From positions 1 to 45,682 of the forward strand of contig CAJOIC010000043.1 of NCBI GenBank assembly GCA_905234625.1: DNA of 45,682 bases, written 5' to 3'. This document shows, piece after piece, positions 13,682-17,028 of this stretch. The notes beneath the pieces were generated by a model. That model saw only the letters and a list, made by a program, of their open reading frames with translations. It searched no databases and was not told the origin of the DNA. The translations under genes were made by a program, and so were the position numbers. Position 1 is the stretch's first letter. Every line of letters starts with the position of its first letter. Origin of the DNA: an uncultured Oscillospiraceae bacterium. GTDB lineage: Bacteria; Bacillota; Clostridia; Oscillospirales; Oscillospiraceae.

Positions 13682-14157
13682 CTTTTTGAATTCGCACTGA
13701 CGACTCGGTCGACCGGACTTTTGCGCCCGGTGACGAGGGCCGACCATCCGGTATGGGCTGATATGATACATTTCGCACCGACGGCTTGGTCGACCAAGCT
13801 TTTTGTGCCCGGCAACGAAGGCCGGCGATCCATAACAGACATAAACGCGCGTGAATGATTGCTGCGTGTTAGATAGAGGCTGGAAGAACCAGGGAGATGT
13901 ATTGACGGAATCTGTAGAGTGAGGGAGGTGAGGAGAAGGCCCGCCTCCTCCCGGCGGCCGGTCAGGGCAATGTCGCCCTTTTTGTCGTCCAGGCGGTAGG
14001 TCTCCCGGACGGTCTCGCCGGGGGCGGCTCTCTCCAGCATTTTGCGGAAGTCCCCCATGACGCCGGGGATGACGGCATTGCAGACGGCCAGGCCCTTTTT
14101 CTCCCCGTAGACGGCGGCGAAGGCGGCCCGGGCGGCCTGGATCCAGGTCAGGTTCAC
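13672..14157 (-). CDS. Hypothetical protein whose C-terminal half is encoded by the intergenic repeat
   Basis: An open frame of 161 codons. I start it at the GTG at 14157, where GTGA overlaps the stop of the upstream glycosyltransferase gene; a second GTG lies at 14169. Residues 1-80 ([20 protein letters not shown] at the start, later [20 protein letters not shown]) look like real coding sequence and match the codon use of the operon. The last 65-70 residues are translated from the two 60-bp repeats and contain two echoing segments ([16 protein letters not shown] and [16 protein letters not shown]). The frame also runs 10 nt into the end of glyA. Most likely the original stop was lost when the repeat arrived, so the protein may be a remnant. 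Function unknown. Confidence 0.5.
13691..13832. repeat. Two copies of a degenerate 60-bp intergenic repeat
   Basis: Copy A is 13691-13750 and copy B 13772-13832, same orientation, 21 nt apart. Both begin TTCGCAC and share GGTCGACC, TTTTG, GCCCGG, GAAGGCCG-like blocks; by eye about 80% identical. Copy B contains a hairpin with a T-run. The sequence looks like a dispersed non-coding element; other genomic copies cannot be seen here. Confidence 0.75.
13784..13804 (+). terminator. Repeat-borne terminator after glyA
   Basis: GCTTGG (13784-13789), loop TCGA, CCAAGC (13794-13799), then TTTTT. The only terminator-like structure downstream of glyA. Confidence 0.6.
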
Positions 14158-15494
14158 GACTGCCACCACCGTTCCAGCGTCCGGAAGAGGGGGCCCTTTT
14201 CCAGGTGATCCTCGATGCGCTGCTCCAGCTCCTCGCCCCGTTCCTCGATCTGACCCAGGGCGGTCATGAGCTCGCCCTGGGCGCGGAAGAACTCGTCCTG
14301 GGGCTTGAGCCGCCGCCGATATCCGCCGGAGCGGTAGCTGTCGATGACCACCTCATAGCGCTCGTAAGCCCGGGCCACGGCCTCCTCCCAGGAGATGTAC
14401 AGCTCCCGGGCGGCATTTTCCCCCACGCTCCGGGGCAGGCCGGGCTGACCGCACAGGGTCTCCAGCTTCGCCGCCAGGGAGGGGGCGTTCTCCCGGATGA
14501 GGAAGCCGTTCCGGCCGTCCGTGACGCCCTCCGCGGCGCAGCTTCCCTCGATGAGCACCGAGGCCAGGGAGCAGGCCGCCGCCTCCCGCACCACCAGGCC
14601 GTTGGTGTCGAAGGTGGAGGGGAAGAGGAAGAGGTCGGCCCGGCAGTACCAGGCCCGGATGACGTCCCGGTCCCGGATGGAGCCCGTGAAGAAGCATCGG
14701 TCCCCCAGGCCCAGCTTTTCCGCGTACGCCCTGACCTCCGGGCCGTCCGCGCCGTCTCCCACGAAGACCATGCGGAAGTCCGCGGATGTTTCCTTCAGGG
14801 CCGCCAGGGCGTCCAGGATGATGCGCAGGCCCTTGTACCACATGAGCCGCCCCACGAAGAGGAACACGGGCACGCCCTCCGGCAGGTCATAGCCCTCTGC
14901 TGCGGCGGCTATGGCGGCGTCGGAGACCCGTTCCCGGGGTACGTCCACGCCGTTTTCCATGACCAGGTAGTCCCCGTCGTAGCCCAGGGACCGGAGGTTC
15001 TCCCCCGCGCCGCGGCTCACCACCCAGACCTCGTCGCAGGCGCTGATGTTCTGGGCCAGGGCCCTGATGGCGGTCTGCTGCAGGAGCCTGCCGTGGACGG
15101 CCTTGGCGATGTCGATGTCGAATTTCGTGTGGTAGGTGAATACCAGGGGGATATCCAGCACGTTCCGGAACTCCCGGCCCAGCAGGGTGGAGGCCACGGG
15201 ACAGTGACTGTGCAGAAGCTCCACCTTCTCCTCCTTCAGACGGGCGGGCAGCTCCGGGCTGAAGGGTACTCCGGCCACATAGCCCACCACCTTCCGGGTG
15301 TCGATGCTGGGATAGCGCAGCACGGGGAAGGGGAAGCCGCTGTCGTCCGCGTCGGGATAGGCGGGGGTGGCTACCACGGCGTGGCCGTGGCCGGTCTCTA
15401 TATGCCGGGCGTAGTTCGTCACGGCGTTCGCCACGCCGTCGATGACAGGCGGGAAGGAATCGTTCAGAAGACAGATGCTGTGTCGTTGGGCCAT
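14154..15494 (-). CDS. GT4-family glycosyltransferase
   Basis: 446 residues with the two-Rossmann-domain GT-B layout. N-domain: ICLLNDSFPPVIDGVANAV, the usual acceptor-side loop, and HSHCPVASTLLGREF. C-domain: VPVFLFVGRLMWYKGLRII, FVGDGADGPEVRAYAEKLGL, FTGSIRDRDVIRAWYCRADL, and the donor motif PSTFDTNGLVVREAAA, in which the first Glu of EX7E is Asp. It is closest in pattern to diacylglycerol glucosyltransferases and other GT4 enzymes that use a nucleotide-sugar at the cytoplasmic face; acceptor unknown. A C-terminal Glu-rich helix (EERGEELEQRIEDHL) could be a coiled coil. Start chosen at 15494 (GAGGAGGA, 5-nt spacing), not at a codon 30 nt earlier. Confidence 0.88.
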   Translation of the reverse strand: MAQRHSICLLNDSFPPVIDGVANAVTNYARHIETGHGHAVVATPAYPDADDSGFPFPVLRYPSIDTRKVVGYVAGVPFSPELPARLKEEKVELLHSHCPVASTLLGREFRNVLDIPLVFTYHTKFDIDIAKAVHGRLLQQTAIRALAQNISACDEVWVVSRGAGENLRSLGYDGDYLVMENGVDVPRERVSDAAIAAAAEGYDLPEGVPVFLFVGRLMWYKGLRIILDALAALKETSADFRMVFVGDGADGPEVRAYAEKLGLGDRCFFTGSIRDRDVIRAWYCRADLFLFPSTFDTNGLVVREAAACSLASVLIEGSCAAEGVTDGRNGFLIRENAPSLAAKLETLCGQPGLPRSVGENAARELYISWEEAVARAYERYEVVIDSYRSGGYRRRLKPQDEFFRAQGELMTALGQIEERGEELEQRIEDHLEKGPLFRTLERWWQS

Positions 15495-15522
15495 GAGAGT
15501 CCTCCTCGATCGTTTTGACAGC

Positions 15523-15660
15523 ATTATACCACAGACGCGGAGCGTCGTTGTGGTATATATGTAAATCCGGTATAATAGCCTGCGGCTATTATACCACAGA
15601 CGCGGAGCGTCGTTGTGGTATATATGTAAATCCAGTATAATAGCCTGAGGCTATTATACC
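15523..15660. repeat. 65-bp tandem repeat built from two alternating hairpins
   Basis: The block starting ATTATACCACAG begins at 15523 and 15588, and ATTATACC again at 15653: two full 65-bp units and a partial third, nearly identical. Each unit has hairpin 1 (TATACCACA and GACGC arms around GGA, closed by GCGTC and TGTGGTATA) and hairpin 2 (12-bp arms GGTATAATAGCC / GGCTATTATACC around a 3-nt loop). Both strands carry TATAAT, one preceded by TGG. It fills the spacer between two divergent genes. Unit structure is like a MITE or REP family; no coding capacity. Confidence 0.9.
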
Positions 15661-15689
15661 ATGGAGTGAGGCGCAAATCCAGATTGCCG

Positions 15690-15718
15690 TTGCGAAAGCG
15701 CCGGTTTTGCGGTATGAT
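15690..15718 (+). promoter_or_regulatory. Promoter of the barnase-barstar genes
   Basis: TTGCGA (15690-15695), 17-nt spacer, TATGAT (15713-15718), 27 nt before the GTG start, just outside the hairpin repeats. Confidence 0.7.
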
Positions 15719-15745
15719 AGGGTCGATCGGAAAGGGTGATGCGAT

Positions 15746-16348
15746 GTGAACGGAATAAAGCGCCTTATGGCGCTGCTGCTGGTGCTGGTGCTGGCCCTGG
15801 GCCTGACCGCCTGCGCCTTGGATGCGCCGCCGGCTGCGCCGGAGGCGAATGACGGGGCTGTTACGGATGCTGGGGCGACTGCCCCGGGGGAAGCATTCGC
15901 TATATCTGACACGTCCGCGCCGGCTGCGCCGGAGGCGAATGACGAAGCTGCTGCGGAAGTCGAAGCCGCGTTGCCCGAGGAAGCAGAGGCTCCGGCGGAG
16001 GAAGAGGCCCTCGATCCGGAGGGCTGGTACACCGCGAAGGAAGACGTGGCCCTGTACCTGCATCTTTACGGGAAGCTGCCCGGAAACTTCATCACCAAGA
16101 AGGAGGCCCGGGCCCTGGGCTGGTCCGGCGGCGGCCTGGACGGTTACGCCGACGGCAAGTCCATTGGCGGGGACGTATTCGGGAACTACGAGGGCCTTCT
16201 GCCGGAGGGCTCCTATCACGAGTGCGACATCGGCACCATGCACGCCTCCTCCCGCGGGGCGGAGCGCCTGGTGTACTCCGACGACGGCAGGGTCTACTAT
16301 ACCGGCGACCACTACGAGAGCTTCACGCTCCTGTACGGGGAGGAATGA
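15746..16348 (+). CDS. Barnase-family secreted ribonuclease, lipoprotein
   Basis: 200 residues. A lipoprotein signal peptide ends in LTAC with lipid Cys 23. Residues 24-90 are an Ala/Glu/Pro linker with APAAPEAND duplicated. Residues 95-200 align by eye with barnase: GKLPGNFITKKEARALGW, GKSIGGDVFGNYEG, YHECDIG, SSRGAERLVYS, TGDHYESFTLLY. All catalytic positions are kept: Lys 110 (barnase K27), Glu 159 (E73), Arg 170 (R83), Arg 174 (R87), His 189 (H102). It should cleave RNA and be tethered outside the membrane. The GTG start at 15746 has AAAGGG upstream; an ATG 2 nt earlier runs into a stop. The inhibitor-like gene follows with only 2 nt between. Role (nutrition, competition, toxin) not decided. 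Confidence 0.92.
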   Translation: MNGIKRLMALLLVLVLALGLTACALDAPPAAPEANDGAVTDAGATAPGEAFAISDTSAPAAPEANDEAAAEVEAALPEEAEAPAEEEALDPEGWYTAKEDVALYLHLYGKLPGNFITKKEARALGWSGGGLDGYADGKSIGGDVFGNYEGLLPEGSYHECDIGTMHASSRGAERLVYSDDGRVYYTGDHYESFTLLYGEE

Positions 16349-16350
16349 CC

Positions 16351-17028
16351 ATGGGATACGAGATCGATCTTTCCGGCGTTTCCGGCCGGGAGGAGCTCCA
16401 CGCCCGGCTGCGGGCGGCTCTGCCTCTGCCGGACTGGTACGGGAACAACCTGGACGCCCTGCGGGACGTGCTGACGGAGTCCGGCGGAGGATGGGATATC
16501 CGCTTCCGGAACGCCGGCCGCGCTTCGGAGAGCGCGGCGGATTATATCGCGGTCCTGCGGCGGATGTGCGCGGACGCCGCGGCGGAGACCCCGGGACTTA
16601 CCATCGCTTGGGAGGACGACGAAAACGATATGCTTCTCGATCATGCGAAACGCCTACGGGCGGATACTGCAAGACACTATAACTGCGCCCAGTCGGTGCT
16701 GGTCCCCTTCGCTCAGGCGGCGGGGATCGACGAGGAGACGGCGTTCCGTGTCGCGGCGAACTTCGGCGGCGGCATGAAGCGGGCGTCGGTCTGCGGCGCT
16801 GTGACCGGCGGGCTCATGGCCCTGGGGCTCCTGGGGATCGACGACGGTCCCACCGTGGCGGAGTATCACCGCCGCCTGCGTCAGGCCCATGACGGGATGC
16901 TGGACTGCAAGGACCTGCTGCGGGTGAACCAGGAACAGGGCGGCGACCGGGCGGCCCACTGCGACGGCATGGTGTACGAGTGCCTGGAGCTGGTGGAGGA
17001 GCTGGCGCGCCGGGCCGGTAAGCTGTAA
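16351..17028 (+). CDS. Barstar inhibitor domain fused to a C-GCAxxG-C-C redox domain
   Basis: 225 residues. Residues 1-91 match barstar: an N-terminal strand, LPLPDWYGNNLDALRDVLT (24-42), an alpha-rich middle and the last strand LTIAW. Barnase-contact residues Asp 35 and Asp 39 are at the same positions as in barstar; Tyr 29 is Trp. From residue 94 the frame continues without a stop into a C_GCAxxG_C_C protein: Cys 112, CGAVTG (148-153) after ANFGGGM, Cys 186, Cys 204, Cys 211, the pattern of a putative redox or metal-binding family. GGAGG lies 7 nt before the ATG at 16351. An internal ATG at 16630 could start the second domain alone, but its ribosome site (GGAGG, 14 nt away) is far. Barstar neutralises barnase in the cytoplasm; a redox partner is not a known part of this pair. 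Confidence 0.85.
   Translation: MGYEIDLSGVSGREELHARLRAALPLPDWYGNNLDALRDVLTESGGGWDIRFRNAGRASESAADYIAVLRRMCADAAAETPGLTIAWEDDENDMLLDHAKRLRADTARHYNCAQSVLVPFAQAAGIDEETAFRVAANFGGGMKRASVCGAVTGGLMALGLLGIDDGPTVAEYHRRLRQAHDGMLDCKDLLRVNQEQGGDRAAHCDGMVYECLELVEELARRAGKL

Follow-up and report, generated by a model that had tools for sequence, protein, structure and literature searches.

A candidate mobile hairpin element at the 3′ edge of −10 boxes in Oscillospiraceae, present as a tandem pair upstream of a glycosyltransferase gene

Bacterial genomes often contain small interspersed hairpin repeats. Of the described elements closest to those reported here, TnGBS, ISLre2 and some elements of the ISKra4 group, with Mutator-like DDE transposases, insert in a fixed orientation 15–17 bases upstream of the −35 box of sigma-A promoters; they have inverted repeats and encode their transposase (accessible text of PMC3942029). 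Correia elements, MITEs of Neisseria, carry sigma-70-like promoters, and one of them lies just downstream of the mtrCDE promoter (accessible text of PMC10969869). The BOX elements of Streptococcus are modular hairpin repeats with variable and sometimes absent middle modules; they have terminal inverted repeats and target-site duplications and are enriched between convergent genes (accessible text of PMC3049150). Finally, REP/REPIN sequences and the ends of IS200/IS605 elements are hairpins with a fixed sequence on the 5′ side and occur in arrays; a guide tetranucleotide stands 5′ of the hairpin foot, of the GT[AG]G type (GTAG/GTGG) in REP (accessible text of PMC6006769).

The units described here, which we call the −10-box hairpin family of Oscillospiraceae (a family defined in the present analysis), resemble the TnGBS/ISLre2/ISKra4 group in their apparent targeting to sigma-A promoters in a fixed orientation; they differ from it in lying behind the −10 box, in being non-coding and in having hairpins as ends. 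Like Correia elements they are small, dispersed, located upstream of genes and equipped with promoter boxes, whereas MITEs are defined by terminal inverted repeats and the accessible text describes no fixed placement of Correia elements at a −10 edge. The modular build recalls BOX, for which no −10 placement is described in the accessible text either. Unlike REP, the family has TGnTATAAT on the 5′ side of the hairpin; furthermore, TATAAT is itself a hairpin arm, and no consistent Y1 partner was found. Insertion at a −10 edge with a second copy of the box at the other end was not found in the open-access literature searched, part of which was accessible as partial text.

The window (the whole stretch analysed, 45,682 nt of contig CAJOIC010000043.1 from an uncultured Oscillospiraceae bacterium) has a tandem repeat at positions 15523-15661 with a period of 65, 2.1 copies and 97% matches; its score of 264 is the top one among 23 rows reported by Tandem Repeats Finder for the window. 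The initial annotation, made from the letters of this DNA, had described 2.1 nearly identical 65-bp units with two strong hairpins in each and TGG-TATAAT facing left towards a glycosyltransferase gene, and our analysis recovered all three features. Of the 65 positions, 2 distinguish the full units from each other, a sign that both copies are real and were not created by duplication during assembly. Each unit contains a hairpin of 9+5 bp (arms TATACCACA/TGTGGTATA plus GACGC/GCGTC) and a second one of 12 bp (arms GGTATAATAGCC/GGCTATTATACC), and the 156-nt repeat region folds far better than its dinucleotide shuffles (200 for each strand; z = −8.3 for the plus and −9.0 for the minus strand). The A+T content is 57% in the repeat and 37% in the window. 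TGG-TATAAT occurs three times on the minus strand, with TATAAT at 15658-15653, 15593-15588 and 15528-15523. In the module names introduced below, the unit read on the minus strand consists of hairpin A, GGATTTA, CAT and hairpin C, with no hairpin B. The features of the locus are as follows.

15690..15718, plus strand: promoter-like site of the barnase-like gene, outside the repeat (TTGCGA-17-TATGAT; counterparts in relatives G008 and G009)
15676..15681, minus strand: −35-like TGGATT (3/6 to TTGACA) in the promoter of the glycosyltransferase gene; 17-bp spacer to the first −10 box
15653..15658, minus strand: first −10 box TATAAT (in TGGTATAAT), presumably the box of the original promoter; aligned with the G008 and G009 boxes
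15588..15652, minus strand: first 65-bp unit, downstream of the first box (exact junction ambiguous within the repeated TATAAT)
15636..15658, minus strand: hairpin A of the first unit, a palindrome whose 5′ arm includes the −10 box (profile E = 9.5e-7)
15588..15622, minus strand: hairpin C of the first unit, ending TGTGGTATAAT (profile E = 0.0023)
15523..15587, minus strand: second 65-bp unit, ending TGTGGTATAAT (from repeat calling and unit comparison)
15571..15593, minus strand: hairpin A of the second unit, a palindrome (profile E = 3.8e-8)
15523..15557, minus strand: hairpin C of the second unit, ending TGTGGTATAAT (profile E = 0.0023)
15523..15528, minus strand: extended −10 box (TGGTATAAT), the last of the three, immediately followed by the glycosyltransferase leader and ribosome-binding site (RBS)
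14154..15494, minus strand: glycosyltransferase gene (GT4-like), ATG at 15494-15492 with GGAGG upstream (Pfam Glycos_transf_1, 5e-28, scored on a longer ORF reaching 15524)

The ATG of the glycosyltransferase gene is supported by relatives whose proteins align from residue 1. To the right of the repeat lies a barnase-like gene in rightward direction (Pfam Ribonuclease, 5e-17). At 15746-17028 (plus strand) the ORF of this barnase-like RNase overlaps another in which a barstar domain is linked to a putative redox domain, C_GCAxxG_C_C, i.e. the inhibitor is fused to an unrelated domain.

The initial annotation had proposed a search for further copies, a lack of which in the genome would count against its reading. 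The own assembly, G000, gave none, either in a DNA search at E ≤ 1 or with the exact hairpin A and the hairpin B patterns; TATAAT...ATTATA occurs in it six times, the two window copies included, against five occurrences of the reversed pattern, i.e. at background. Since we are dealing with an 82% complete draft, another copy could have escaped it, and units of the array could have been collapsed. Relatives contain many copies. A DNA search of 35 genomes of the same genus gave matches in 13, the own genome included, of which at least one (L015) looks like a chance match. The copies define a family unit composed of hairpin A (TATAAT and a stem, ending in ATTATA), a GATTTAA-containing linker rich in A+T, hairpin B (two stem arms enclosing GCTCC ... 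GAACCGC) and, often, hairpin C. After hairpin B, ATGnTATAAT follows directly or by way of hairpin C, which ends in TGnTATAAT; units without hairpin C are also common among relatives.

Across 18 of the 35 genus genomes the hairpin B pattern was matched 75 times; the backward pattern is present in none of the 35. In the named genome collection it was found in 76 stretches: 72 come from ‘Lapin’ MAGs, which from the name we take to be of rabbit gut, and the other four from JAJUHC, JALERU and JAFZSD records. No contig of the viral collection had the exact hairpin B pattern, and a phage search returned one record that matched just the glycosyltransferase part of the query. Of 400 Oscillospiraceae genomes, 33 (in 17 of 106 genera) matched a wider B pattern, some of the single hits surely by chance, and the backward version had one match in each of three genomes. 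Among 20 stretches picked by hairpin A alone from five other genomes of the genus, hairpin B was seen by eye in 15 and was absent in five. Its stem in these five genomes is GTCTTGC/GCAAGAC; elsewhere it is GTTTTGC/GCAAAAC or GTCGTGC/GCACGAC. Another 20 stretches, from five genomes of other genera, mostly show the same layout, several with degenerate first boxes.

Profiles built from relatives alone detected the window units. The two best window matches of the hairpin A profile (81 modules) are the window units (E = 3.8e-8 and 9.5e-7), and so are those of the hairpin C profile (52 modules; E = 0.0023 each); the matches stand in the right order and on the right strand. By eye, the window C module is closest to that of G066, a genome of another genus. 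The window units have a hairpin A that starts at TATAAT and is followed by the linker, they are positioned directly behind a −10 box and they end in TGnTATAAT; lacking hairpin B with GCTCC..GAACCGC, they represent a B-less variant, probably a relic that multiplied locally. Within genomes the units (56 units from 18 genomes) have a similarity of 0.888 versus 0.823 between genomes, a difference reached in 0 of 1000 label shuffles, and upstream flanks are unrelated both within and between genomes (0.456 and 0.467). Thus, the units look copied within genomes.

Where does a unit sit with respect to the promoter of its gene? The glycosyltransferase gene was found in 11 of the 35 genus genomes. In two of them its promoter is free of the insert, TGGATT-17-TACAAT in G008 and TGGATT-17-TATAAT in G009, and runs straight to the leader, RBS and ATG. 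The alignment of the window with G008 and G009 fits as far as the box without spanning the insert, and the match of the leader is one made by eye. The barnase-like neighbour is present in G009 (77% over residues 89-200, E = 1e-54) and out of view in G008, whose sequence ends 288 bases upstream. A third relative, G033, has an insert-free promoter in another context, while the remaining seven loci have other contexts or are cut off. The initial annotation had pictured a MITE-like element with outward promoters; a self-contained element that brings the promoters with it does not agree with the existence of the gene's own promoter, insert-free, in two relatives. TATAAT flanks the window insert on both sides, and it may be carried by the element rather than being a target-site duplication.

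The asnS gene provides a larger series of filled and empty sites. Among 30 loci anchored by tblastn, 16 have a TATAAT promoter with neither hairpin by strict pattern and 10 have hairpin A directly behind TATAAT, six of these with hairpin B as well (again by strict pattern); one more has an array reaching the contig start, which makes 11 filled loci in all, and three were unread. Gain and loss are indistinguishable at single loci, and unit loss could mimic an empty site. At one locus (L214 in G027) the asnS promoter is followed by a solitary hairpin A, with the rest of the unit absent, either a remnant or a minimal form. For ychF, which was also tried as a test for empty sites and proved uninformative, loci of 29 out of 30 genomes were viewed; several were unreadable by pattern, and those that were read do not align upstream.

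To characterize the position at promoters we used the 75 arrays selected by hairpin B, a selection which places B-less variants such as that of the window outside the census; six arrays at contig edges were dropped, leaving 69 that come from related genomes and are not independent. The exact first TATAAT is present in 62 arrays and absent in seven, and the terminal TATAAT is present in 49 and absent in 20. The seven arrays without an exact first box were left out of the −35 and orientation counts (n = 62), and some of the 62 ‘first’ boxes, kept in the counts, are internal or misassigned (e.g. L098, L124, L129, L137, L164 and L167). TTG occurs 22-24 bases upstream of the first TATAAT in 37 of the 62 arrays, in 25 at exactly 23 bases (a 17-bp spacer), compared with 22 occurrences in total at 27 other offsets. 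The extended motif, TG one base before TATAAT, is found in 51 of 62. A start codon that is preceded by a Shine-Dalgarno core and opens a long ORF within 120 bases (a strict test, made after a lax one) was detected downstream of 44 of the 62 arrays, on the opposite side of 12 and at 405 of 3000 random positions. With the lax test for gene starts the counts were 57/62, 35/62 and 1247/3000, respectively, a weaker orientation signal.

These counts also bear on the idea of the initial annotation that the block is MITE-like and has outward promoters in both directions, a reading that we now regard as very improbable. TATAAT does occur on both strands, and both units have a rightward TTGTGG-17-TATAAT (TATAAT at 15571 and 15636), in which TTGTGG, a 3/6 match to the −35 consensus, is at the right distance of 17 bp. 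The rightward boxes, however, are the opposite arms of the palindromes and are not preceded by TG, as TGn precedes the leftward boxes only; also, a separate promoter-like site precedes the barnase-like gene on the right, and both relatives have its counterpart. In the strict test there is little excess of gene starts on the opposite side over random positions, although the excess is larger in the lax one. Leftward promoters in the repeat, with their extended −10 boxes, are plausible; a rightward one is weakly indicated. The label MITE can be kept in a loose sense, for a dispersed hairpin family carrying promoter boxes; terminal inverted repeats were not seen by eye at the unit ends, the inverted repeats present being internal hairpin arms.

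The hairpin stems show compensated changes. At ten pair positions outside the anchoring motifs, 96.9% of cells are paired in 95 copies, while shuffling of partners gave a mean of 80.8% and a maximum of 82.6% (a control that does not remove relatedness). In five distinct A hairpins the partner of TACAAT on the other arm is ATTGTA, and in one it is ATTATA. Covarying stems, along with the position between promoter and gene and the conserved core GCTCC..GAACCGC of hairpin B, would be expected of a structured 5′ leader RNA, similar to a riboswitch or an attenuator, that was acquired by several genes, retained for regulation and spread by selection on RNA instead of by a target-seeking element. Yet the 5′ arm of hairpin A is the −10 box, upstream of what its own promoter would transcribe, and it is compensated nonetheless; this favours a constraint on DNA (a cruciform or a single strand) over one on RNA. 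In addition, the downstream genes are unrelated, and Rfam 15 had no match at the gathering score in window positions 14900-16300 or in seven family loci; two sub-threshold matches were to unrelated families. Hence we consider a leader RNA of this kind quite unlikely.

The anatomy of the units raises the question of a known mobilising enzyme. Subterminal hairpins, no visible inverted repeats, one orientation and a fixed 5′-side sequence are traits of REP or IS200/IS605-derived elements moved by a Y1 (HUH) transposase, in which case the family would be of a known kind with a new target. Y1_Tnp is present in 12 of the 35 genus genomes, the own genome with its RAYT-like gene among them, and in 8 of the 18 that bear the hairpin B pattern; by hand count, the pattern occurs in 8 of 12 genomes with Y1 and in 10 of 23 without. 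On the other hand, Y1_Tnp was not found in the copy-rich genomes G066, G111, G185 and G264, and in other genera it was found in 2 of 11 copy-bearing genomes versus 6 of 11 without copies, which had been picked for high completeness. Y1 transposases thus fit the anatomy of the element and not its distribution, and an origin of this type seems unlikely to us.

Two more specific candidates were rejected. The own genome encodes a RAYT-like Y1 HUH protein of 258 aa (G000:C38:5234-6007, minus strand; L080 and L094), and no similar protein was found in the other 34 genus genomes; as a mobiliser, the gene would be limited to 1 of 35 genomes, and the surrounding 2.4-kb stretch has no family hairpin. 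IS200 copies were tried as the parent element, and three of four fetched copies, examined by eye and by pattern, contain no family hairpins.

We conclude, with a probability of about 0.68, that the block consists of two tandem units of a small non-coding, non-autonomous hairpin element that targets the 3′ edge of sigma-A −10 boxes (TGnTATAAT) and is oriented towards the gene. As judged from sequence comparison, the units start at the −10 box of a promoter that relatives possess in unit-free form and supply a new TGnTATAAT at the far end, and the family is dispersed and modular, with covarying stems. The movement of the element and the activity of its promoters are what we infer from these patterns. 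Transposition as a hairpin or as a single strand may have spread the copies, given that hairpins, not inverted repeats, form the ends and that one orientation prevails. After an insertion the old promoter would transcribe a structured leader, while the recreated extended −10 box would start RNA for the original leader, so that the gene would be spared. Each restored box might serve as a new target, or units might multiply by unequal exchange; either route could produce tandem arrays.

An extension of the preferred reading, speculative and in our opinion improbable, takes the transcription bubble as the target: the element would enter the non-template −10 strand while RNA polymerase keeps it single-stranded in an open promoter complex. 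This would account for several features together, as units lie at the 3′ edge of TATAAT and mostly in one orientation, their hairpin A pairs with the −10 strand, and the box is recreated. The integrating enzyme would have to be a single-strand enzyme invisible to the Y1 model.

If insertion at −10 boxes is true, it is an example of how genes tolerate a mobile element in their most sensitive part, and the family would show how promoters and leaders of gut Oscillospiraceae get rewired. The copies offer natural promoter and leader variants to test, as well as a target pattern for seeking the missing enzyme.

Some individual copies, namely L249 and those of G363, deviate from the common arrangement. 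L249 follows a stop codon, and by eye no start of a downstream gene is evident. In G363 two near-identical repeats (L298 and L299) have a hairpin B-like core, TTTGCTCCCC..GGGGAACCGCAAA, within a different frame that lacks TATAAT; perhaps they belong to another element that uses the same hairpin. In three species the element is located upstream of a uvrB-like gene, as recognized by eye from the first residues (L232 in G001, L245 in G006 and L139 in G026), which could reflect either an old insertion or repeated targeting.
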